Translations under genes and position numbers: made by a program
Source of the DNA: a virus
DNA: 22,802 nucleotides
IMG/VR virus record: IMGVR_UViG_3300025141_000819
Location: 1 to 22,802 of that record
Reading direction: 5' to 3' (one strand)
In this document: positions 2,295 to 17,981 of the stretch, in pieces
Position numbering within the stretch: position 1 is the first letter of the stretch
Layout of the letters: every line of letters begins with the position of its first letter
Notes under the pieces: model-generated
What the model was told of the DNA's origin: nothing
Databases searched by the model: none
Seen by the model: the letters and a program-made list of their open reading frames with translations, nothing else

Positions 2295-2457
2295 AATTAC
2301 TTATCTCCTCATCTTTGATGATTAGTTCTACCATTTGAGAGTCTATCCCAAATTCTTTTTTTACATTTTGAGCAATAGTTTTTTTATCAATATATTTTCT
2401 CCATTTTTCAATGTAGTCTATTGTATTAAAATAACTCTCATTAAACACTTTGCTCAT
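2284..2457 (-). CDS. Small hypothetical protein, 57 aa
   Basis: An unlisted short gene filling the gap between its neighbours. Its ATG overlaps the stop of the ART-like gene as ATGA (2457-2454), indicating coupled translation, and its stop lies inside the next gene. The product begins MSKVFNESYFNTIDYIEKWR and is charged and helical, with no recognised domain. The exact tiling with its neighbours is the main support. Confidence 0.55.
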   Translation of the reverse strand: MSKVFNESYFNTIDYIEKWRKYIDKKTIAQNVKKEFGIDSQMVELIIKDEEISNYDN

Positions 2458-3380
2458 TTATAATTACTCTTTAAATATTTCATTGCCATATCTTTTGCTC
2501 TATGCTCTTGTTGTTGAATTGAATATTTAATTTCTACTGCACCATCTTTGACTAATTTATTAACATCTACCGAAATATTATTTACTTCTGATAAATCAAC
2601 ATTTGGGTTTTCTATTTTTATTAAGTCATGAAGAACTGTGCTAAAGATTAACTGACCATCTTGCCAAAACAATTCATCATCAACATTTGGATTTCCTGTC
2701 GTGTGATAGAAACATTTATTTAATTTATCCATCAGTAATTTTGTTTTTATTACATTATAAACTGATACTCTCTGTCTTAATTTATTAAGCATTTCTTTTT
2801 CACATCTTAATAATTTTTTACCCAAAAGAACATCAAGTTCAAGTTGATGAAATTTTTTGTAATTGTCTAAGTAGCCAAAGTTTATTTCAGCACTCATATT
2901 TATTAAATAACTTTCATCATTTAATTCTAATTTATGTATCTCTTTAATCTTTTTGGATTTGATTCTTCCTTTATGAGAACAAGTTCCTAATAGGTCTAAA
3001 GATTGTTTCCAAAACTCTTTATATTTTTCTATGTTATCTCGATAGTAAAGAGTCTTTTCAATTAATTTCATCTTTGCTATTTCTTTATCAAGACCATACA
3101 CTTCATAAAATTGTTTTGGTATTTGTGCCATGTAATCTTCATCAGGATATAGGTCATCTTCTGAAACTTCTATTTTGATAATTGCTATTTTGTAATCATC
3201 ATCTGACACACTTCCAGCTTTACTGATTCCAAATCTTATTGGAAATGTATTAGTTAGATAAACATGGTCATCATGACTTGGACAATTATCCCAATGACTC
3301 TTACTTGGTTTTAATCCTGACTTTGAAATCTTTTTAGCAGATTCAATATCTGTACCATGATATAAAATTATTTTCTTCAT
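2454..3380 (-). CDS. ADP-ribosyltransferase-like (PARP/KptA-type H-Y fold) protein
   Basis: A 308-residue protein. The N-terminal 90 residues resemble the ADP-ribosyltransferase fold of the H-Y-E type: ILYHGTDIESAKKISKSGL (H8, then a helix and 'GL.P') and VYLT (Y41) match the NAD-binding His and Tyr motifs of PARP-, KptA- and DarT-like enzymes. The strand KIAIIKIEV is followed by an acidic PDEDY segment. The third catalytic residue cannot be fixed by eye. The remaining 200 residues are helical, charged and unassigned. NAD-dependent modification of a host protein or nucleic acid would be the expected activity, as phages use ARTs to redirect host machinery. It has a leader ending GAGGTAAAATAAC before the ATG and sits at the end of the early leftward operon. 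ART-like fold is moderately supported; the target is unknown. Confidence 0.55.
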   Translation of the reverse strand: MKKIILYHGTDIESAKKISKSGLKPSKSHWDNCPSHDDHVYLTNTFPIRFGISKAGSVSDDDYKIAIIKIEVSEDDLYPDEDYMAQIPKQFYEVYGLDKEIAKMKLIEKTLYYRDNIEKYKEFWKQSLDLLGTCSHKGRIKSKKIKEIHKLELNDESYLINMSAEINFGYLDNYKKFHQLELDVLLGKKLLRCEKEMLNKLRQRVSVYNVIKTKLLMDKLNKCFYHTTGNPNVDDELFWQDGQLIFSTVLHDLIKIENPNVDLSEVNNISVDVNKLVKDGAVEIKYSIQQQEHRAKDMAMKYLKSNYK

Positions 3381-3606: not shown

Positions 3607-3764
3607 ACGCTTAACCTATCAGACATAATTGCCATAGCTTTTAATTCATTAAGAGTTTCTAACAACTCTCTCATATTTTTTGAATCAGGACTATAACCTC
3701 TTTCTAGTAAGCTGACATAAAATGCCATTCCCTCTTTATACTTTTTATATTTTTCTAATACCAT
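3603..3764 (-). CDS. Small hypothetical protein, 53 aa, first gene after an internal promoter
   Basis: A short helical protein beginning MVLEKYKKYKEGMAFYV. The ATG at 3764 has the phage's characteristic leader (AAACGAGG, then TTAAAAAA) and lies about 35 bases downstream of a leftward promoter of the shared type. The stop overlaps the next ATG as ATGA. It is the leading gene of the 3764-to-1976 unit. No function was recognised. Confidence 0.6.
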   Translation of the reverse strand: MVLEKYKKYKEGMAFYVSLLERGYSPDSKNMRELLETLNELKAMAIMSDRLSV

Positions 3765-3772
3765 TTTTTTAA

Positions 3773-3827
3773 CCTCGTTTAATATTATTTATACTTATAG
3801 TATATATTATTATCGGTATAATAAAAG
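3773..3827 (-). promoter_or_regulatory. Leftward promoter and leader of the shared phage type
   Basis: Read leftward: CTTTT (3827-3823), 16 nt, TATATACTA (3806-3798), then a leader ending in AAACGAGG. The 35 bases 3773-3807 repeat at 12426-12460 with only two differences, although the downstream genes are unrelated. This points to a conserved promoter, leader and ribosome-binding unit. Confidence 0.6.
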
Positions 3828-4349: not shown

Positions 4350-4937
4350 CTATCTCCAGCTTTCGCCACTTACCCAGCATACCAAAACTTTACGAGTACC
4401 ACTTGTAATCGGTGTGACACAATGACTCATAAAACTTGTAAATGCTGTTAATTGTTCTGTTGTTTTTTCCATTACAATTTCTTCTCCACCATAATTTATT
4501 TTTAAATCTCCACCCTCGTAGTCATCATCAACCACCCATGAGATACTAATTTTTCGTGTCGAGCCAAGTTCACTATTAATATCCGAATGGGTTTTATAAT
4601 AATCGCCTTGTGAGTATTCTAAATACTGAATGTCTTGTATTGCAGAAATTTTATAATTAAAAATACTATTAATTTTTATTGCATACTTGTGCATCAATTC
4701 AGAAATTTTAGACTCTAAAGGTATTCTCCACATTTTTACTTTTCTCATATCTTCCAAATCTTTGTTATGAACATTAGCAGTAGTTTCTTCGCCAACACCT
4801 GATGATAGTTCTACTCTAACTGAAACTAAATCAGCTCGACTAATATCTAATTTAATAACACCATAATTTGGATTTAAAGATAAATCAGGTTTACCATGTT
4901 TTTGAAAGAACTCGTTTGTGAATATGCTTACTGACAT
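4350..4937 (-). CDS. 2OG-Fe(II) oxygenase, prolyl-hydroxylase/PKHD-type
   Basis: A 195-residue protein with the double-stranded beta-helix signature of prolyl 4-hydroxylase-like dioxygenases. THSD gives the H117-x-D119 iron-binding pair, YEGGDLKI follows about 20 residues later, SFMSHCVTPITSGTR supplies the distal His (H172) and the 2-oxoglutarate-binding Arg (R182), and VCWVSG follows. These enzymes couple 2-oxoglutarate decarboxylation to hydroxylation of a protein or small-molecule side chain, and are common in marine phages with largely unknown targets. The ATG has no clear Shine-Dalgarno and is preceded by a perfect 10-bp hairpin at 4948-4983, which may control its expression. The fold assignment is confident, the substrate is not. 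It is distinct from the TET/JBP-type enzyme at 10266-11183. Confidence 0.85.
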   Translation of the reverse strand: MSVSIFTNEFFQKHGKPDLSLNPNYGVIKLDISRADLVSVRVELSSGVGEETTANVHNKDLEDMRKVKMWRIPLESKISELMHKYAIKINSIFNYKISAIQDIQYLEYSQGDYYKTHSDINSELGSTRKISISWVVDDDYEGGDLKINYGGEEIVMEKTTEQLTAFTSFMSHCVTPITSGTRKVLVCWVSGESWR

Positions 4938-6139: not shown

Positions 6140-6170
6140 TATAATATACTATAAGTAATTATAAATAAAG
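6140..6170 (-). promoter_or_regulatory. Leftward promoter for the ERF gene block
   Basis: Read leftward: CTTTA (6170-6166), 17 nt (TTTATAATTACTTATAG), TATATTATA (6148-6140). It matches the rightward site at 8761-8791 almost base for base. It overlaps the -10 region with a discarded ATG of the ERF frame. Confidence 0.6.
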
Positions 6171-6172
6171 TA

Positions 6173-6361
6173 TTATTTCTCTGTATTTTCTATCAATTTT
6201 TCTAGCAATATTTTATCAGTTTTGTATTCCCAAACTTCTGATGGTTTTTTAGGTTTGGTATCTTTCTCATATTTTTTAATGTGAGTTTCAAGATACTTAA
6301 TTATTCTACTAGTTTCCATATTTGCGAAACATGATTTTTTAAAGTTTATATCGTATGCCAT
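6173..6361 (-). CDS. Small hypothetical protein, 62 aa
   Basis: A lysine-rich 62-residue protein (MAYDINFKKSCFANMETSR) with no recognised family. The start has GGAGAAAAATAAA before it and follows the DUF3310 gene by one base. It ends immediately before the ERF promoter, making it the last gene of the first leftward unit. Confidence 0.55.
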   Translation of the reverse strand: MAYDINFKKSCFANMETSRIIKYLETHIKKYEKDTKPKKPSEVWEYKTDKILLEKLIENTEK

Positions 6362-8098: not shown

Positions 8099-8129
8099 AT
8101 TATAATACTATAAGTATTAATAAGTAAAG
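8099..8129 (-). promoter_or_regulatory. Leftward early promoter
   Basis: Read leftward: CTTTA (8129-8125), 17 nt, TATTATA (8107-8101). The spacer contains the ACTTATAG core seen at other sites. It faces the whole leftward block. Confidence 0.55.
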
Positions 8130-8140
8130 TATTAATATCA

Positions 8141-8171
8141 CTTTATTTATATTTACTTTTAATATAAACTA
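8141..8171 (+). promoter_or_regulatory. Rightward early promoter
   Basis: CTTTA (8141-8145), 17 nt, TATAAACTA (8163-8171). It lies back to back with the leftward promoter and 46 bases before the Cro-like repressor gene, which is typical of a phage switch region. Confidence 0.55.
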
Positions 8172-8216: not shown

Positions 8217-8402
8217 ATGAAATTAAGAGAATATCTTAAAAATCAAGCAGTTAGCGTGAGCAAGGTAGCGAAAATACTAGATGTTCCTGAGGTCACAGTA
8301 AACTCATGGAAATATGGAAATAAGATTCCTAGCAAAAAAAACATGGATAAAATAGTAGAATTTACTAATAAAGAAGTTCAACCAAACGATTTTTACACAT
8401 GA
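8217..8402 (+). CDS. Cro/CI-like HTH repressor
   Basis: A 61-residue protein that is nearly all helix-turn-helix: LKNQAVSVSKVAKILDVPEVTVNSWKYGNKIPS, then NMDKIVEFTNKEVQPNDFY. Single-domain Cro-like repressors of this size bind operators in divergent early control regions. It is the first rightward gene, with AACAGGAGAACAATAA before the ATG. Likely operators are the near-palindromic TACT...AGTA cores in the adjacent promoters. No CI with a cleavable domain and no integrase are seen, so its presence does not prove lysogeny. Confidence 0.8.
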   Translation: MKLREYLKNQAVSVSKVAKILDVPEVTVNSWKYGNKIPSKKNMDKIVEFTNKEVQPNDFYT

Positions 8403-8758
8403 GTTTTCAAGCAATATCTTGGGCTACAAAGCAAAAGACAGATTGTAATGGTAGTAAATTATTGCTGATTATGTTATGTAATTATGCCGATAAGGATAAC
8501 AGATGCTATCCTAGTTTGGCACATTTAAGTGAATTATGCTGTTGCTCTACGAGTAGCGTTCAGAGATATGCAAGAAAATTGAAAAAATGCAATTTAATTA
8601 AAGTTGAAAAAGTGGGCAAAGGGTTAAAGAAACACAATCATTATACGATTAATATACCTAAATCTGTTGTAGTCAATTTGACTAGTAATACTAATATAAC
8701 TAATAAAAATAAATTTATTAAACAGAAAGGTAGAAATAAAAACTTTATCGCTGGATAA
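8399..8758 (+). CDS. Winged-helix (HTH_36) replication-type protein
   Basis: A 119-residue protein that opens with AISWATKQKTDCNGSKLLLIML, followed by CYPSLAHLSELCCCSTSSVQRYARKLKKCNLI. This is the HTH_36 domain typical of phage replication initiators (O-like proteins). The C-terminus is short, basic and Asn-rich. Full-length initiators are usually longer, so this is a minimal version. The gene overlaps the repressor stop as ATGA and precedes the helicase, as expected for an initiator or loader. A role only as a regulator cannot be excluded. Confidence 0.65.
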   Translation: MSFQAISWATKQKTDCNGSKLLLIMLCNYADKDNRCYPSLAHLSELCCCSTSSVQRYARKLKKCNLIKVEKVGKGLKKHNHYTINIPKSVVVNLTSNTNITNKNKFIKQKGRNKNFIAG

Positions 8759-8760
8759 TA

Positions 8761-8791
8761 CTTTATTTATAATTACTGATAGTATAATATA
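8761..8791 (+). promoter_or_regulatory. Rightward promoter before the helicase
   Basis: CTTTA (8761-8765), 17 nt (TTTATAATTACTGATAG), TATAATATA (8783-8791), with an ideal TATAAT. A leader with AACGAGGGCAAAACA before the ATG at 8820 follows. Confidence 0.65.
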
Positions 8792-8819: not shown

Positions 8820-9668
8820 ATGAAAGATGGTATTCACAAAGCAAAAGATTTATATGAGGATTTATGGAAACTTTATGAGGGCAAAGTTTGCAAGAGATAC
8901 AAAACAGGTTTTAAAGATTTAGACCCAATTATGAGGATAGTAAAACCCTCATTTATCTTAATGACAGGTGTGCCAAATTGTGGCAAGTCAAGTTTAACAT
9001 TTGATATCATAATGAGAACAGCTAAAGAGCATGATTTTAAATATGTTATCTTCTCACCTGAACATAGTTTGGCAGTTAATTTGAAAAGACTAATTGAGAA
9101 ATATGTTCATAAACCATTTGATGCCATGTTTGGAGATAATAGATGCACTATTGAAGAAGTACAAGATGCTGTGGCTTTTATTAATGAACATTTTTATTTT
9201 ATAGACAAGAAAGGCGATTCGCCTGACATTGATTGGATAATTGATAGAGCAAGATATTGTGTTAATGAGTTTGGCTGTGATGGATTGGTCACAGACCCAT
9301 ATAATGAAATTAATCCAGCAAGAAGTAATTTAAGAGAAGATGAACACATATCATTACTTATATCGAAAATTAAACGATTTAATCGAGAAACAAATACAAT
9401 CACATTTATGGTGGCTCACCCTACCAAGCAAATAAGAAATGCTGATGGTATGTTTGAAGTTAAGAGTCTTTATGATGTTAGTGGTAGTAGTCATTGGAAT
9501 AATAAAGCCGATATTGGTGTCATTGTCACTAGAGATTTTGAAAGAGGGCAAACAAAAGTCAGAGTGGCTAAAGTACGAGAAGTAGATGTTCAAGGAAACA
9601 TAGGCGAAATAACACTTCGTTGGAATAATGATACAAAGTGTTATGATTCATTAATGGATAAATTTTAG
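8820..9668 (+). CDS. DnaB/gp4-type replicative helicase ATPase domain
   Basis: A 282-residue RecA-like helicase. Walker A is GVPNCGKSS (50-58), a glutamate-containing strand SPEH lies at 79-82, Walker B is GLVTDP (D159), and AHPTK (199-203) is the sensor-like motif. SGSSHWNNKAD (221-231) matches the conserved 'GS..i...aD' motif of the T7 gp4/Twinkle/DnaB group. The primase and N-terminal scaffold domains are absent, so priming must come from another phage protein or the host. It would unwind DNA as a hexameric ring at the fork. The gene has its own promoter and leader. Confidence 0.85.
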   Translation: MKDGIHKAKDLYEDLWKLYEGKVCKRYKTGFKDLDPIMRIVKPSFILMTGVPNCGKSSLTFDIIMRTAKEHDFKYVIFSPEHSLAVNLKRLIEKYVHKPFDAMFGDNRCTIEEVQDAVAFINEHFYFIDKKGDSPDIDWIIDRARYCVNEFGCDGLVTDPYNEINPARSNLREDEHISLLISKIKRFNRETNTITFMVAHPTKQIRNADGMFEVKSLYDVSGSSHWNNKADIGVIVTRDFERGQTKVRVAKVREVDVQGNIGEITLRWNNDTKCYDSLMDKF

Positions 9669-9679
9669 GAGATAATATA

Positions 9680-10285
9680 ATGCAAGTAATTGAAAGAAAT
9701 ATATCAGATATAATACCAGCCGATTACAACCCAAGAGAATTAACTAAGAAACAATATGCCGAAATTAAGGAAAGTATCGCTAAATTCGGTCTTGTAGACC
9801 CTCTAATAGTCAATATACACCCTACTAGGAAAAATATATTAGTTGGCGGTCACCAAAGATTGCAAGTTATTATTGGTATGGGTTTAAAAACAGTTCCATG
9901 TGTAGAGGTTAATCTTGATGAGAAACAAGAGAAAGAGTTAAATATAAGACTCAATAAAAATCAAGGACAATGGAATTATGATAATCTAGCAAACTTTTTT
10001 GATGTAGATAATTTGGTAGATTGGGGATTTGATTCAAAAGAATTAAATTTTTCCAATGTTGCTGAATTAAACGAAACCATGAGTGCTGTTGATAATGAGT
10101 TTAATGGCGAGGGAGATGATTTTTTACCATCACAAGTAAGAATGGTGCAATTATTTTTAAGTTCTGAAACCGAGCCAATATTTAGAACACAAATAGAAAA
10201 ATTAAAAGAAGTCTATAATGCTGACAATATAACTGATGCTGTAATGACAGCTATAAAAAACGAATATGAAAGTAATAACAGTTAA
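9680..10285 (+). CDS. ParB-like N-terminal domain protein, part of modification operon
   Basis: A 201-residue protein with a ParB/Srx-type N-terminal domain: IPADYNPRELTKKQYAEIKESIAKFGLVDPLIVN, then ILVGGHQRLQVI, then VEVNLDEKQEKELNIRLNKNQGQW. No HTH or methylase domain follows. The C-terminal 90 residues are acidic then helical and unassigned. Such ParB-like domains often accompany DNA-modifying enzymes in phages, and Iyer and colleagues' genome-context surveys of TET/JBP systems report this association. It overlaps the dioxygenase gene by 20 bases, so the two are coupled. It may target or regulate the modification machinery. True partition is unlikely, as no ParA is seen. Confidence 0.8.
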   Translation: MQVIERNISDIIPADYNPRELTKKQYAEIKESIAKFGLVDPLIVNIHPTRKNILVGGHQRLQVIIGMGLKTVPCVEVNLDEKQEKELNIRLNKNQGQWNYDNLANFFDVDNLVDWGFDSKELNFSNVAELNETMSAVDNEFNGEGDDFLPSQVRMVQLFLSSETEPIFRTQIEKLKEVYNADNITDAVMTAIKNEYESNNS

Positions 10286-11183
10286 AGAGCATAAAACAGC
10301 AGAAGAATTAGATGATATTAAAGGCACATATCTTGATGAGTCTTACATAAAATATCCTATTCCTATCGAAAACACTACATTCAAAAATGAAAATGGAGAT
10401 ATTGTCGCAGTTTACTTAAACAAAATTATACCATTTGATATTTGTAAAAAAGCGTTTCCATTTTTAAGGAAAGCATCATTAAGAGAATCTAATAATAGAG
10501 GTGTCGCATCAGGTAGAACAGATGAAATGAAAGTTGGAATGAAGATTGATGGCTTGTATGTTGGCAAAGTTTTGAGTGGTGGTAGGTTTATCCCACTAAA
10601 AAAAGATGGCACTTTATCTAATTCACCTAAAGCAATAGCAGTAAATTCATCTGTAATAGGTTATTTGGATAGGTATGCTAGGATTCCATATTGTAGAATG
10701 ACAGAATATAGCCAAAGATTTTTTGATGAATATAGATTAACACTACCATACATAAGATATATTTCTAAAATGTATGAAAAATTTGTACCTGAAAAATATA
10801 ATCTTCAAAAAGATTATTGGTATAAAATACACAAAGATTTCAAAATTGACAATACAGCATTTACTACTGTCACATTAAATAATAATTTTAGAACAGCTTG
10901 TCATACTGATAGTGGGGATTTTAGAGGTGGAATAGGTAATTTGGCAGTATTGGAGAAAGGTAAATATGATGGTGCTTATACAGTTATCCCAAAATATGGT
11001 ATCGGTTTGAATGTAAGGAATACTGATGTTGGCTTTTTTGATGTCCATGAAATACATGGAAATACCGAGATAGTTAAACATGGTGCTAGTGAGAGAGTTT
11101 CTGTTGTTTGTTATATAAGAGAAAAAATGATTAATTGTGGAAGTGCTAAAGAAGAATTACAAATAGCATTAAAAAGAGAATGA
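10266..11183 (+). CDS. TET/JBP-family 2OG-Fe(II) dioxygenase (pyrimidine base oxidase)
   Basis: A 305-residue enzyme whose C-terminal 110 residues carry the TET/JBP signature: FTTVTLNNNFRT, ACHTDSGDF (H213-x-D215), GIGNLAVLEKGKYDGAYTVIP, VGFFDVHEIHGNT (distal iron ligand H264) and SERVSVVCYIRE (R277, 2-oxoglutarate). The whole block aligns by eye with the JBP1/JBP2 thymine hydroxylases and phage TETs. It is expected to hydroxylate the 5-methyl group of thymine or 5-methylcytosine in DNA. The N-terminal 200 residues are unassigned. The stop overlaps the next ATG (ATGA), coupling it to a glycosyltransferase that would cap the new hydroxyl. Which base is oxidised cannot be read from the sequence. 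Confidence 0.88.
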   Translation: MKVITVKEHKTAEELDDIKGTYLDESYIKYPIPIENTTFKNENGDIVAVYLNKIIPFDICKKAFPFLRKASLRESNNRGVASGRTDEMKVGMKIDGLYVGKVLSGGRFIPLKKDGTLSNSPKAIAVNSSVIGYLDRYARIPYCRMTEYSQRFFDEYRLTLPYIRYISKMYEKFVPEKYNLQKDYWYKIHKDFKIDNTAFTTVTLNNNFRTACHTDSGDFRGGIGNLAVLEKGKYDGAYTVIPKYGIGLNVRNTDVGFFDVHEIHGNTEIVKHGASERVSVVCYIREKMINCGSAKEELQIALKRE

Positions 11184-11944
11184 TATATCCGATATATATA
11201 CCTAGCAAAAATAGACCCGATGCTAAATTTTTAGAGTTAATTAAAGATTTAGATGCTGATAAATATTTAATATTAGAGCCACAAGATATAGATAAATATG
11301 ATAATTATAAAGATTATTTTACAATATTAAACCTCAAAAAAAATGACATGGGTTTGGCTTTTTCTAGAGATTTTTGCAAAACCTATGCTGATAATAACAA
11401 CAGCAAATGGTATTGGTTAATTGATGATGATATTACAAAGTTTTATAGAACATTAAATAATAAAAATGTTCCTATTACACCTAAAGAGGCATTAGAATCA
11501 GCACAAGAACAGTTCAGCGTTATGCCGATAGCACTAGGCTCATTAGAATATCAACAATATTCTTGGAATCAAAAAAAACCTTTCAAATTAAATTCTTATG
11601 CTGATTGTGTGGTGTGCTTTAATGTAGAAAGAACGAAAAAATATAAATATGATTTACAGTTTAAATTGAAACAAGATAGAGATATGGCATTACAAATAAT
11701 GTCAGATAAACAATATGTAATGAGAGCATTACAAATATCTTTTTCTTGCCCAAGTTATGGTAGCAACAAAGGTGGTTTGCATGATGTTTACCATAAAGAA
11801 AAACTTGAAAAAAGTATGGCAGAAAAACTCGTAAAAAAATGGGGCAGAAAGTATGTCAATCTACAAATAAAAGAGCATAGTTCAGGAACGAGATATGATG
11901 CTAAAATTAATTGGAAAGTATTTAAAGTTAATATAGATTGGTGA
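11180..11944 (+). CDS. TET/JBP-associated glycosyltransferase (TAGT-like)
   Basis: A 254-residue protein with a GT-A-like layout. It opens with YIPSKNRP, a nucleotide-sugar-binding start. GLAFSRDFC (58-66) follows, then YWLIDDDI with the metal-binding Asp cluster D82-D84, a central CVVCFNVER and KQDRDMALQ (D166, D168). The YIPSKNRP, IDDD and QDRDM set is the pattern described for glycosyltransferases found beside TET/JBP enzymes in phages. It would transfer a sugar to 5-hydroxymethylpyrimidine made by the upstream dioxygenase, giving a base-J-like or glucosyl-hmC-like product. Coupled by ATGA to the dioxygenase, it is the last gene of this rightward unit. Family call is good; sugar and base are unknown. 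Confidence 0.75.
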   Translation: MIYPIYIPSKNRPDAKFLELIKDLDADKYLILEPQDIDKYDNYKDYFTILNLKKNDMGLAFSRDFCKTYADNNNSKWYWLIDDDITKFYRTLNNKNVPITPKEALESAQEQFSVMPIALGSLEYQQYSWNQKKPFKLNSYADCVVCFNVERTKKYKYDLQFKLKQDRDMALQIMSDKQYVMRALQISFSCPSYGSNKGGLHDVYHKEKLEKSMAEKLVKKWGRKYVNLQIKEHSSGTRYDAKINWKVFKVNIDW

Positions 11945-11976: not shown

Positions 11977-12417
11977 TTATCTTTGTTTAAAGTGACCATT
12001 CATTTTGGCTATGGGAGTTTCCCAAGTTAAGCCAACGACATCAAGAGCATTATGATGAGAAACAGTATTTTTAAACTGTCTGAATCTTCTTCTGAAGTTT
12101 ATGTCAGTAAGAAGAAACCTCTCATTATGACTATCTAGCCATTTAGTAAAAGCTATCACAACAAATTTAACTTTTATGAATGCTTTTCTTTTTTTGGTTT
12201 CAGAGTTTGTAGAGCTTTCTATATCTCCCTCATAAAACTCAATGAGTTTACTACAAGCTATTGACCAAGTATTATTGTCATCATAAGTGCCACCTACACC
12301 TCTAACCTCTTTTAATGCTTGATACCAAGCACTTTTGAAAGTTTTAATGTTAGTAATATCATTAAGACCGATTTCCGATACTATTTTTTTAACATCATCT
12401 ATTTGATTGTTTTCCAT
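11977..12417 (-). CDS. Hypothetical protein, leftward orphan gene
   Basis: A 146-residue helical protein with no recognised family. A helical N-terminus (IDDVKKIVSEIGL) is followed by aromatic-rich (SAWYQALKEVRGVGGTYDD) and basic segments. The gene points left in a rightward region. It has its own promoter (12451-12481), the CATATTTTTATCCTCGTTT leader shared with the moron gene at 16947-17639, and the 25-bp repeat behind it. These marks suggest an independently expressed cassette of the same type as the morons at 16947-17916. Confidence 0.65.
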   Translation of the reverse strand: MENNQIDDVKKIVSEIGLNDITNIKTFKSAWYQALKEVRGVGGTYDDNNTWSIACSKLIEFYEGDIESSTNSETKKRKAFIKVKFVVIAFTKWLDSHNERFLLTDINFRRRFRQFKNTVSHHNALDVVGLTWETPIAKMNGHFKQR

Positions 12418-12425
12418 ATTTTTAT

Positions 12426-12481
12426 CCTCGTTTAATATTATTTATACTTTAAGTATATATCAGTATAGATTACATACAAAG
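12426..12481 (-). promoter_or_regulatory. Leftward promoter and leader of the orphan gene
   Basis: Read leftward: CTTTG (12481-12477), 17 nt, TATATACTT (12459-12451), then a leader with AAACGAGG. The 35 bases 12426-12460 nearly repeat 3773-3807. Confidence 0.55.
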
Positions 12482-12549: not shown

Positions 12550-12572
12550 GTATACATTTATTTCAGCAAATG

Positions 12573-12603
12573 CTTTACTTTATACTAAAAGTAGTATATA
12601 TTG
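12573..12603 (+). promoter_or_regulatory. Rightward promoter of the structured RNA
   Basis: CTTTA (12573-12577), 17 nt (CTTTATACTAAAAGTAG), TATATATTG (12595-12603). It is the only recognised promoter upstream of the structured RNA and would start transcription near 12610. Confidence 0.55.
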
Positions 12604-12609
12604 AAAATG

Positions 12610-12876
12610 TAATCAAGGAAGAATTAATTACTCTGATATGATTACTACTATCGACTCGGTGCCATTATAAACCGAATTTGAGAGAAATCTCACAACGAGT
12701 TGAGTTTGATAGGTAGAGATGTAAGTTAATGAAACTAAAAAATAATGGTCGAGTTTCATTCCTGTACTTCGGTACTTGCTCGAACTCATAGAGTGTAATG
12801 GCTCATATTGAGATGTAGATGGAAGTTCTCAAAAAATCTGTACAGTAGGGTGGGTGCGAACTCACCCTATTTTTTT
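12610..12876 (+). ncRNA. Candidate structured non-coding RNA upstream of terS
   Basis: This stretch has no plausible protein gene but carries many exact complementary arms. TCGACTCG (12651-12658) pairs with CGAGTTGA (12696-12703) with one G-U. Inside it TGAGA-GAAA-TCTCA (12679-12692) is capped by a GNRA loop. TGAGTTTGA (12701-12709) pairs over a distance with TCGAACTCA (12780-12788), sharing three bases with the first stem. Within that lie AATGAAACT/AGTTTCATT (12728-12736 with 12752-12760, perfect) and GTAC-TTCG-GTAC (12764-12775, a cUUCGg loop). TTGAGA/TCTCAA follows, near 12809-12831. A strong terminator ends the unit. A promoter of the shared type lies just upstream. Two classic tetraloops and nested stems argue for a selected RNA. 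The role is unknown: packaging RNA, antitermination RNA, sRNA or a cos/pac-linked structure are all possible. Ends are estimated from promoter and terminator. Confidence 0.6.
12846..12876 (+). terminator. Strong intrinsic terminator before terS
   Basis: TAGGGTGGGT (12846-12855) and ACTCACCCTA (12860-12869) form a 10-bp stem with one G-U pair. The loop is GCGA (GNRA type), and seven T residues follow (12870-12876). It would end transcription of the structured RNA, so terS needs readthrough, antitermination or its own promoter. Confidence 0.85.
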
Positions 12877-12879
12877 GTC

Positions 12880-12908
12880 TTGCTTTTTTCTTATTTTTAC
12901 TCTATAAA
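12880..12908 (+). promoter_or_regulatory. Possible sigma70-type promoter directly before terS
   Basis: TTGCTT (12880-12885), 17 nt, TATAAA (12903-12908), placed right after the terminator. Its start point would fall only a few bases before the terS ATG, implying a nearly leaderless message. The stretch is very T-rich, so chance is a real alternative. Confidence 0.3.
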
Positions 12909-12918
12909 AAGAGTATAT

Positions 12919-13302
12919 ATGCCAAAAATAGTAAAAAAAACTGATGAGATAGGAAGAATGGTAAAACAATTATCAGGAATAGGTGTCACTCATGACATGA
13001 TTTGCTCTATTGCTGGTATATCAAAACCCACTTTATATAAATATTATGATGAGGAATGTAAGCTAGGCAAGGCACAATCTACTGTCACAGTGGCGAATAA
13101 CTTATATCGTATGGCAACAGGAGATGGGAAAGAGGCTCTGACAGCATCTATTTTTTGGCTTAAAACACAAGCTGGTTGGAAAGAAACTGATGTTGTGGAG
13201 ATAAACAATGTATCAGATGAAAACGAAAAATTCTCAGAACTTATTAAACAAGTTCGACACACTAGGTTATCACAAAAAGATAGCGACAAATCTACTCATT
13301 GA
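12919..13302 (+). CDS. terS: Terminase small subunit
   Basis: A 127-residue DNA-recognition subunit of the packaging motor. The start at 12919 (MPKIVKKTDEIGRMVKQL) is chosen over an ATG at 12808 that would read through the terminator hairpin. An HTH domain (GVTHDMICSIAGISKPTLYKYYDEE) is followed by the helical oligomerisation core. The phage TerS hallmark 'AL.ASIFWLKTQAGWKETD' lies at about residues 74-93. The C-terminus is charged. It has little Shine-Dalgarno sequence. Its last 95 bases overlap the large-subunit gene in another frame. Confidence 0.85.
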   Translation: MPKIVKKTDEIGRMVKQLSGIGVTHDMICSIAGISKPTLYKYYDEECKLGKAQSTVTVANNLYRMATGDGKEALTASIFWLKTQAGWKETDVVEINNVSDENEKFSELIKQVRHTRLSQKDSDKSTH

Positions 13303-14497
13303 GTGGTATGGCAAGGCGAGAAAGAGCCAATTAGTAGAAGATGATGATAAATATAACATACATCTTTTTTTAGCTGGTCGTGGCTGGGGCAAAACTCTTA
13401 CAGGTGCTTATGACATAGTTCAATATTGTTTAATGAACGACAATGTTATTTGTGGAGTAATTGCACCAACTTATGGTGATTTAAAGAGAGTTGTTTTTTC
13501 AGGCGATTCAGGTTTCATTAATATAATTGATAAAAGATTATTGAGTGAAACAGGATATAATAAATCACAGAATGAAATACACTTTTATAATGGCTCTCGA
13601 ATAGTTGGCTTTCCAGCGATAGAGCCAGACAGATTAAGAGGAGTTCAATTTCATAGAGCATGGTGTGATGAATTAGCAAGTTGGAGATATTCAGAAACTT
13701 TTGATAACTTAATGATGGCATTAAGACTTGGGCAGAATCCTAAATGTATTATTACCACAACACCAAGACCAACGAAAATAATTAAGTCTTTAGCCAAAAG
13801 AGAAGATACGAAACTCATTAAAGGTAGCACTTTTGAAAACATTGATAATCTAGCTGAATCCTCAATCCAAATGTTAAGAGAACGATATGAGGGTACAAGA
13901 ATTGGTAGGCAAGAATTATATGCTGAAATACTAGAAGATATTGAGGGTGCTTTATTTCATTATAAAAATATAGAAGAAAATAGAGTTGTAGATTTTCCAC
14001 CTGATTTAGAAAGAATAGTAGTTGCTATTGACCCAGCTGTCACTAGTAATGAGGAGTCAGATGAAACAGGAATGGTCGTTGCTGGGAGAGATGCCAATAA
14101 TCACTACTATATTTTGCACGATAGTAGTCAAATTTCCTCGCCTGATGTATGGGTTAAAAAAGCCATTTCACTTTATAAACAATATCAATGTGATAGGATA
14201 GTAGCAGAGGTTAATAATGGTGGAGATTTAATTGAGAGATTATTGAGAACACAAGACCAAACAATACCATATACTAGTGTTAGAGCAAGTCGTGGTAAGA
14301 TTGTAAGAGCAGAGCCAATTTCTGCTTTATATGAACAGAATAGAGTACATCATGTGGGAGTGTTTAAAGAATTGGAAGAACAAATGTGTCAGTTTACAGG
14401 AAACCAAGCACAATATCATGATGATAGAGTAGATGCTTTAGTTTGGGCTATAACCTCATTACAGAATAGTGGTCGTGCTGTGTTTAATATTAGTTAG
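13208..14497 (+). CDS. terL: Terminase large subunit
   Basis: A 429-residue ATPase-nuclease that pumps DNA into the prohead. WYGKARKSQ (33-41) is the adenine-binding region, LAGRGWGKT (55-63) the Walker A motif, AWCDELASW (151-159) Walker B with D154 and catalytic E155, and TTTPRPTK the coupling motif. The nuclease acidic residues are in AIDPAV (D275), IVAEVNNGG (E334) and HDDRVDAL (D405, D406, D409). All are intact. The start at 13208 has GTGGAGATAAACA just before it, supporting the long overlap with terS. Length is normal for the GTA/HK97-type family. Confidence 0.93.
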   Translation: MYQMKTKNSQNLLNKFDTLGYHKKIATNLLIEWYGKARKSQLVEDDDKYNIHLFLAGRGWGKTLTGAYDIVQYCLMNDNVICGVIAPTYGDLKRVVFSGDSGFINIIDKRLLSETGYNKSQNEIHFYNGSRIVGFPAIEPDRLRGVQFHRAWCDELASWRYSETFDNLMMALRLGQNPKCIITTTPRPTKIIKSLAKREDTKLIKGSTFENIDNLAESSIQMLRERYEGTRIGRQELYAEILEDIEGALFHYKNIEENRVVDFPPDLERIVVAIDPAVTSNEESDETGMVVAGRDANNHYYILHDSSQISSPDVWVKKAISLYKQYQCDRIVAEVNNGGDLIERLLRTQDQTIPYTSVRASRGKIVRAEPISALYEQNRVHHVGVFKELEEQMCQFTGNQAQYHDDRVDALVWAITSLQNSGRAVFNIS

Positions 14498-16883: not shown

Positions 16884-16941
16884 AGTCAATTTGACTACAC
16901 AAAAAAAAGAGCCATATTGCTATGACTCTCTCTTTCTTTTT
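16884..16941. terminator. Bidirectional terminator between MuF and the moron genes
   Basis: AGAGCCATA (16908-16916) pairs with TATGACTCT (16921-16929) with one mismatch around TTGC. Eight A residues lie to the left (poly-U when read leftward) and a T-rich run to the right. A small palindrome, AGTCAA-T-TTGACT, lies at 16884-16896. It would stop the rightward head transcript and the leftward moron transcript. Confidence 0.7.
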
Positions 16942-16946
16942 GTTGT

Positions 16947-17639
16947 TTAGTCTAGTCTTGAACTAGATGTTGCTTTAATACCAGCTTTTGACAAAACTTG
17001 TGCATAAGCACTAGCACCAGCCTCATGTATCATTATACATTGTCCATTGTAATCGGCTGGTTTCCATATAGAGTAAGACTTCTCATAATGACTCCAACTG
17101 TACCCAAGTTTTTCAAGTTGTTTACCTAGTTTAGAGTTTTGTCTTACACCATGAACATTTACCCATGCAAATCCACAAGCAAGTTCAGGCTCTCCATGTT
17201 CCTCTAATGCTTTTTCAACAGCTTTTTTAGAAACTCTTAAAGCCCAATCGTGTGTTTCCTTAAAATTAATATGTGAATATTGTTCTTTAAGGTTTTTACG
17301 ATACTCACTTCTTTTTTTAGAATTTTCCTGAACAGATACTTTACTATCTATTCTATCCAAAACAAATTTAAGAACAGCATCTACTAATAGTAAATGGTTT
17401 TGAACATCAACTTCTTCTCTTACATAAAATTCCTTTAAAGGTTTATATCCTTTCATTGGCATTATATAAAGAGCATATTTAGGTTGTTCGCCATATATTT
17501 TTATTGGATTTACACTTCTAAATAAAAGAACATTTGCTTGGTTTAACTGTTCTGCTGTTGTTTTACCAAAGCTGTCAAGTTGTTTCCAATCATAATGTTT
17601 GTTTTCTCTTATCATTTTATACTTTTCTAATTTTCTCAT
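16947..17639 (-). CDS. Moron-type conserved hypothetical protein
   Basis: A 230-residue protein on the opposite strand to all surrounding structural genes. The C-terminal 80 residues form a compact domain: CGFAWVNVHGVRQNSKLGKQ, then KLGYSWSHYEKSYSIWKPADYNGQ, then EAGASAYAQVLSKAGIKATSSSRLD. The pattern 'FAWV.....SK.....K.G.......W....YNGQ....EAGA.A.A..L...GI.A...SR.D' recurs in many phage proteins of unknown function, as far as I recognise it. The N-terminal part is basic and helical. Its leader shares 19 bases exactly with the orphan gene at 11977-12417. Likely a host-interaction or accessory gene expressed independently of the head operon. Confidence 0.7.
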   Translation of the reverse strand: MRKLEKYKMIRENKHYDWKQLDSFGKTTAEQLNQANVLLFRSVNPIKIYGEQPKYALYIMPMKGYKPLKEFYVREEVDVQNHLLLVDAVLKFVLDRIDSKVSVQENSKKRSEYRKNLKEQYSHINFKETHDWALRVSKKAVEKALEEHGEPELACGFAWVNVHGVRQNSKLGKQLEKLGYSWSHYEKSYSIWKPADYNGQCIMIHEAGASAYAQVLSKAGIKATSSSRLD

Positions 17640-17672
17640 ATTTTTATCCTCGTTTGTTGTTAATTGTTAATT

Positions 17673-17697
17673 TGGGTGGTTAAGGTGACACCCACAC
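17673..17697. repeat. 25-bp repeat, copy 2 (hairpin-forming)
   Basis: TGGGTGGTTAAGGTGACACC followed by CACAC. It is the second copy of the element at 11945-11969, differing at three loop positions. It lies directly behind the 70-aa gene at 17704-17916, just as copy 1 lies behind the orphan gene. Confidence 0.75.
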
Positions 17698-17703
17698 CAT
17701 TTG

Positions 17704-17916
17704 TTATAAAGTTCTAGCAAATTTTTCTAAGACTTCTTGTCTGCTAACACCTGTAAGATGATATTGAACTCGCCCTGAAAATTGACAAGTGCTTAACCAT
17801 TTACAAGTTGGTTTATAACCTATGTCATTCATTGTTATTAACCAAATCTCTTTGATAGTGTCAAATGCTACAATGCCTTTACCTAAAGATTTAATGTTTG
17901 TATATCTGTTTTCCAT
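17704..17916 (-). CDS. Moron-type small hypothetical protein, 70 aa
   Basis: A 70-residue protein starting MENRYTNIKSLGKGIVAFDT. It reads as a small alpha/beta domain (IKEIWLITMNDIGYKPTC, VQYHLTGVSRQEVLEKFA), with no family recognised. It is the first gene behind its own leftward promoter, with an AAACGAGGAAAAT leader, and carries the 25-bp repeat at its 3' end. Confidence 0.65.
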   Translation of the reverse strand: MENRYTNIKSLGKGIVAFDTIKEIWLITMNDIGYKPTCKWLSTCQFSGRVQYHLTGVSRQEVLEKFARTL

Positions 17917-17949
17917 ATTTTCCTCGTTTATTAATTTATTCTATATATT

Positions 17950-17981
17950 CATTATATTATACTAATAGTATAAAGTAAAGG
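17950..17981 (-). promoter_or_regulatory. Leftward promoter of the moron pair
   Basis: Read leftward: CCTTTACTTTATACTATTAG then TATAATATAATG. The spacing from CTTTA to the first TATAAT is 14 nt, shorter than at other sites. The core TATACTATTAGTATA is a near-perfect palindrome. Confidence 0.5.

Follow-up and report, generated by a model that had tools for sequence, protein, structure and literature searches.

The TET/JBP, TAGT, ADDT, and ABC-GNAT proteins of phages, and the links between them, were reportedly predicted by Iyer, Aravind and co-workers. Systems for cytosine hypermodification by a phage TET and a C5-methyltransferase (MTase), reported by Burke et al. 2021 and represented by Melnitz-type loci, share with the locus analyzed here a TET/JBP oxidase and downstream transferases; our locus, however, has no C5-MTase, carries a TET from a separate clade with Arg at position 285, and is led by a ParB gene. 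Kinetoplastid base J, made by JBP1/JBP2 and JGT, involves the chemistry that we predict for the phage, namely thymine hydroxylation followed by glycosylation of 5-hydroxymethyluracil (5hmU) in DNA, but the phage oxidase has no J-binding domain, the sugar-adding enzyme is a TAGT (TET-associated glycosyltransferase), and the phage product is a prediction. Prokaryotes and viruses have been described as lacking base J (PMC11065319). The gp1-gp2-gp3 genes of Cooper-type mycobacteriophages (e.g., Serendipitous, Waleliano, Wooper) have the same order of ParB, TET, and transferase (TAGT or ADDT) next to the terminase, but their TETs are only about 19-21% identical to ours and have Leu at 285, and their ParB tails belong to another family. 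The closest isolate is Pelagibacter phage HTVC112P, in which a ParB with our type of tail and a TET 53% identical to ours are followed by an FkbM methyltransferase in place of the TAGT. Finally, a predicted nucleobase acylation system built on an ABC-ATPase/GNAT protein (PMC7824862) uses the same slot behind ParB, but its enzyme is unrelated and its ParB has a different tail that matches that enzyme.

The window, by which we mean the whole 22,802-base stretch of DNA analyzed here, is complete as a record and probably a fragment of an HK97-type tailed phage genome, with portal, capsid, tail, and terminase genes and a G+C content of 32%. We propose that its ParB-TET-TAGT trio is probably a cassette for post-replicative hypermodification of DNA bases. 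The ParB-like protein would bind or slide on phage DNA and bring the TET/JBP enzyme through its C-terminal tail, and the enzyme, an oxidase by profile, ligands, and fold, would convert thymine in DNA to 5hmU by hydroxylating its 5-methyl group. The TAGT, whose family and fold are clear, is predicted to move a sugar onto the hydroxymethyl group to form a base-J-like nucleotide, and the decorated genome may thereby escape some host nucleases. As far as could be seen, the record-wide absence of C5-MTase by clade, two exchange boundaries, the pairing rule between tail and partner, and the existence of stand-alone tails are new, although Iyer 2013 or Burke 2021 may have anticipated the thymine prediction or the ParB link.

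The operon and its products

The trio ends a rightward operon that runs from an HTH gene through a Rep-like protein and a DnaB-like helicase to parB, TET, and TAGT. The DnaB-C-like replicative helicase (8820..9668, + strand; PF03796, E 2.5e-12) opens the enzyme series and is separated by 11 bases from parB (9680..10285, +; 201 aa), which has a good ribosome-binding site, AGGAG. TET (10266..11183, +; 305 aa) overlaps parB by 20 bases at 10266-10285, and TAGT (11180..11944, +; 254 aa) overlaps TET by the ATGA at 11180-11183; both overlaps were read directly, and the three overlapping rightward genes of the earlier note proved exact in frame and coordinates. The trio recurs in more than 10 independent viral contigs, with ParB and TET at 84-94% identity, and thus is not a chance arrangement. 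Several genes, including the helicase-parB operon, are preceded by an AT-rich intergenic repeat, often ATACTATAAGTAATTATAAATAAAGTATTA-like and in direct or inverted orientation (3761-3826, 6146-6175, 8105-8167, 8755-8787, 12414-12479, 12570-12611, and 17913-17978), whose copies may serve as operators for the 61-aa HTH protein encoded at 8217-8402.

The three family assignments made in the earlier note, together with the catalytic residues that it named, are borne out by profile searches and by structure predictions for both enzymes. The first protein matches ParB_N (PF02195, E 2.7e-8, residues 5-87) above the curated cut-off. Among phage proteins, its closest relatives are ParB domains in fusions with DNA methyltransferases; the window protein has ParB_N only, with a different tail, and no ParA-like protein was recognized among the window proteins scanned. 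We consider a role as a partition protein unlikely, on the grounds of those methyltransferase relatives and of a tail that is particular to the TET partner. Proteins of the ParB/Srx group also include nucleases and NTPases (PMC10853773).

The second protein falls within TET/JBP 2-oxoglutarate/Fe(II) dioxygenases (PF12851, E 9e-25, 87 bits against a curated cut-off of 34.9). Across 40 aligned phage TETs there is no variation in the iron ligands (H213, D215, H264), the arginine that binds 2-oxoglutarate (R277), or Y283, and the AlphaFold model of the window TET (pLDDT 92.8) finds NgTET1, TET2, CcTet, and CMD1 as best fold matches with probability 1.00. This TET is present in 13 phage records, and scans of viral contigs with single-sequence queries yielded about 150 TET loci. 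Names in public annotation vary: mycobacteriophage TETs that align with TET/JBP (L138 813-1730; PHROG_6059) are labeled "queuine tRNA-ribosyltransferase," apparently a misannotation spread from neighboring 7-deazaguanine phages, and the HTVC112P TET (L002 7599-8507) is annotated "DnaJ chaperone /putative SNF2 DNA repair protein," with similar names in DLP6, Cr30, and S-CBWM1. The SNF2 name may derive from kinetoplastid JBP2, which contains an SNF2 domain. Elsewhere in the window, 4350-4937 (- strand) encodes a second, unrelated 2OG-Fe(II) oxygenase (PF13640, E 1e-10; phrog_61), and 2454-3380 (- strand) encodes a 308-aa protein beginning MKKIILYHGTDIESAKKISKSGL (phrog_13493, no Pfam match), a start that resembles ADP-ribosyltransferase-like proteins.

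The third protein matches the TAGT family (PF20691, E 1.1e-14, 55.3 bits against a curated cut-off of 27.5). The DDD motif (D82-D84) and D166 of QDRD are conserved in 12 relatives, and the AlphaFold model (pLDDT 89.3) has GT-A-type glycosyltransferases as best folds. The gp3-type proteins, considered as a separate family, turned out to be divergent TAGTs. In Nocardia phage NTR1 (L178 845-1720), a TAGT follows ParB with no adjoining TET; either the TET lies elsewhere or the transferase acts on another acceptor.

The exchangeable slot and the ParB tail

DNA comparisons among relatives indicate that the cassette occupies a modification slot open to exchange, flanked on the left by the ParB_N domain and on the right by the terminase genes, a small-subunit-like gene (12919..13302, +; start set by homology with L018) and the large subunit (13208..14497, +; PF03237, 1.4e-20; PF17289, 1.3e-17). 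A first boundary lies at the end of TET. In L005, L006, and L012, which have about 82% DNA identity to the window, identity stops at 11171-11179 and resumes at 12878-12880; the ParBs are 90% and the TETs 89% identical, and the two TAGTs, both members of PF20691, share 22% over 151 aa (E 0.03). By this alignment, relatives exchange their sugar transferases precisely where TET meets TAGT, and the third gene is not fixed. The window's TAGT type is accompanied, also in L004, by an orphan gene on the reverse strand (11977..12417, -; 146 aa) for which searches gave no Pfam or PHROG match and no phage homolog. Across the MTase-less TETs of the tree, the gene directly downstream has changed at least 14 times, the occupants including two divergent TAGT types, an FkbM methyltransferase, FkbM plus TAGT, ADDT plus a kinase, and sugar-nucleotide enzymes.

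A second boundary, seen in six DNA comparisons, lies within parB between the ParB_N domain and the tail (10045..10051): L017 (88% DNA identity) stops matching at 10045 and L018-L022 (69-74%) at 10051. Identity returns on the right at 12862-12870 (94% in L017) in every contig that extends this far, which that of L021 does not. With the comparisons at the first boundary included, homology to relatives returns at 12862-12880, beside an intrinsic terminator-like hairpin (12844..12871, +; a 12-pair stem with a T run) that marks the right end of the exchanged segment. In L017 the tail, TET, and TAGT are replaced by a single 363-aa ABC-ATPase/GNAT protein, whose type has a predicted role in nucleobase acylation (PMC7824862 and its ref. 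136), and in L018-L020 the slot holds only a reverse-strand or small ORF. Actinophages share this plan of gp1 ParB, cassette, and terminase, with cassettes consisting of TET-TAGT, TET-ADDT-kinase, 7-deazaguanine genes, ABC-GNAT, or TAGT alone; the ParB of Vincenzo carries a fused methyltransferase-like domain. A 230-aa reverse-strand gene in the window's head operon (16940-17683) recurs at 70% DNA identity in L017 (3221-3926), where it sits between the ABC-GNAT gene and terS, and by its two placements this gene is a moron moving between sites.

The C-terminal tail of ParB (residues 151-201; 10130..10282, +) is recognized by a profile from other lineages (E 2.5e-17) and is absent from TET-less ParBs. 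The last ~50 residues of TET-linked ParBs are 24-55% identical to the window tail, even in cases where the ParB_N domains share only 25-35% identity, and ParBs without a TET have another tail even when ParB_N is up to 74% identical. A profile built from six ABC-GNAT-linked ParBs (Gordonia, Arthrobacter, Pseudoalteromonas, Pasteurella, and Streptococcus phages) finds L017 (6e-13), L183 (1e-12), and L186 (2.5e-6), and no TET-linked ParB better than E 3. Additionally, tails of both types can be encoded as separate genes. Porphyromonas and Pseudomonas phages have a 42-49 aa ORF of this kind ahead of ABC-GNAT (E 3e-3 and 1e-9), and ParB-less P12024L-type phages have a 71-72 aa ORF ahead of TET, where the match to the tail is weak (E 7e-4 to 0.2; hhalign probability 47, E 2e-4) and partly positional. 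TET-linked ParBs of actinophages have a common tail of their own, missing from non-TET ParBs, which forms a separate family because the marine-trained tail profile does not find it. Judged from these alignments, the C-terminal ~50 residues of ParB go with the partner enzyme and not with the rest of ParB, a pattern most simply explained if ParB_N serves generally for loading on DNA and the tail for docking the partner.

The tail might instead be a DNA-binding or regulatory domain that travels with the enzyme because exchange breaks at the domain border. By sequence it is strand-helix-helix-like and could be a ribbon-helix-helix DNA binder, and co-transfer by linkage alone would give the identical boundary seen in close relatives. 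Such co-transfer accounts poorly for a pairing that recurs in phages with the distant ParB_N domains noted above, or for tails that occur alone beside the enzyme, and we regard this explanation as plausible but the less probable one. A search for a known solved domain gave no convincing PDB match, and that identification was rejected.

Thymine or 5-methylcytosine

A TET needs a 5-methyl group, which thymine has and cytosine acquires only through a C5-MTase. The oxidize-then-glycosylate logic of the earlier note holds, and the base, which it had left open between thymine and 5mC, can now be weighed. We searched the whole records of TET-bearing contigs and genomes with PF00145. Of 89 records with the TET type of the window or one of its sisters (HTVC112P, P12024L, Cr30/DLP6/C48C1, S-CBWM1, and actinophage), 88 had no C5-MTase, including the 35.7-kb relative and the window itself, an incomplete record. 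Eight of the genomes are complete (HTVC112P, P12024L, DLP6, Cr30, C48C1, S-CBWM1, Serendipitous, and Ottawa); many of the remaining records are fragments, in which single absences carry little weight. The sole exception, the P12024L-type contig L153, has a short C5-MTase-like gene with PPC and ENV motifs. All 24 Melnitz-type TET records, in contrast, have a C5-MTase, usually directly upstream of TET, and in a maximum-likelihood tree of 62 TETs, built after removal of the trait columns, a single branch (support 100/98) sets all MTase-linked TETs apart. No thymidylate-synthase-type (dUMP/dCMP) hydroxymethylase was found in the window or near relatives, a TS-family gene being present in Cr30 only, and oxidation in DNA is therefore the likely source of the hydroxymethyl group.

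The neighbors of TET also bear on the base. ADDT, aGPT-Pplase3, and P-loop nucleotide kinase 3 come after TET in MTase-less phages, and ADDT, aGPT-Pplase, and P-loop kinase reportedly act in 5hmU-based thymidine hypermodification, in work attributed to Iyer in 2013 and Lee in 2018. Submitters of Gordonia phage Wooper named a Tet-like J-binding protein, aGPT-Pplase2, and a 5-hmU DNA kinase. The P-loop kinase was discarded as an indicator of thymine chemistry, its family occurring beside MTase-linked TETs as well. TAGT-like genes are likewise found downstream of C5-MTase-linked TETs (L096, L087, L090, and L108, all Melnitz-type), and TAGT presence thus cannot tell cytosine from thymine. Nor is the sugar universal, since HTVC112P-type phages have no TAGT anywhere in the genome.

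Within the enzyme, position 285 is Arg in 35 of 35 MTase-less TETs outside the actinophages, Asp or Gly in MTase-linked TETs, and Leu in actinophage TETs. In the profile alignment it corresponds to H1904 of TET2, which we take to be a base-contacting residue in the TET2-DNA structure. The Arg285/MTase split amounts to a single evolutionary change, a correlation that is a lead rather than proof. Asp218, aligned with TET2 N1387, is found in both TET clades.

If the phage TET instead oxidized 5mC made by the C5-MTase of a host or distant phage, the TAGT would yield glucosyl-hmC-like DNA, in line with the phage TET systems characterized so far. Characterized phage TETs do act on 5mC (Burke 2021, as cited in PMC11404850 and PMC12730594), the fold matches of the window TET are 5mC oxidases, with no thymine oxidase with a solved catalytic domain found for comparison, L153 retains its short C5-MTase, and the Melnitz-type pairing of TET and C5-MTase exists in marine phages. 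Scans of genome contigs with TET and terminase gave no host match, and, with the window probably a fragment, a host C5-MTase could supply 5mC. The absence of C5-MTase, however, extends over eight complete genomes and several host groups, and the ADDT and aGPT-Pplase partners belong to 5hmU pathways, so that we consider 5mC a rather unlikely substrate. Because the window's TET type lacks a C5-MTase and has 5hmU-type neighbors, we infer that thymine, giving a base-J-like product, is clearly likelier than 5mC. Action of the cassette on RNA or free nucleotides, or in host takeover, and not on virion DNA is very improbable given the TET/JBP and TAGT families, a place in the replication operon next to the terminase, and interchange with other predicted DNA-modification systems, all of which favor genome DNA.

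Implications for phage DNA modification

Taken further, phage ParBs may be universal adaptors for interchangeable DNA-modification cassettes, in which a partner-specific tail, either fused or encoded as a 40-70 aa gene, docks the enzyme, and the TET of the slot may be a thymine hydroxylase that makes viral base-J-like DNA. We put this general model forward tentatively, at somewhat less than even confidence. If true, the tail-partner rule would explain why ParB genes precede so many phage DNA-modification enzymes; the tail would predict which enzyme a ParB serves, and it would provide small domains for targeting modification enzymes to DNA. A phage TET that oxidizes thymine directly would change both the view that base J is missing from prokaryotes and viruses and the picture given by the characterized phage TETs, which act on 5mC, and would represent a new enzyme for writing 5hmU into DNA.
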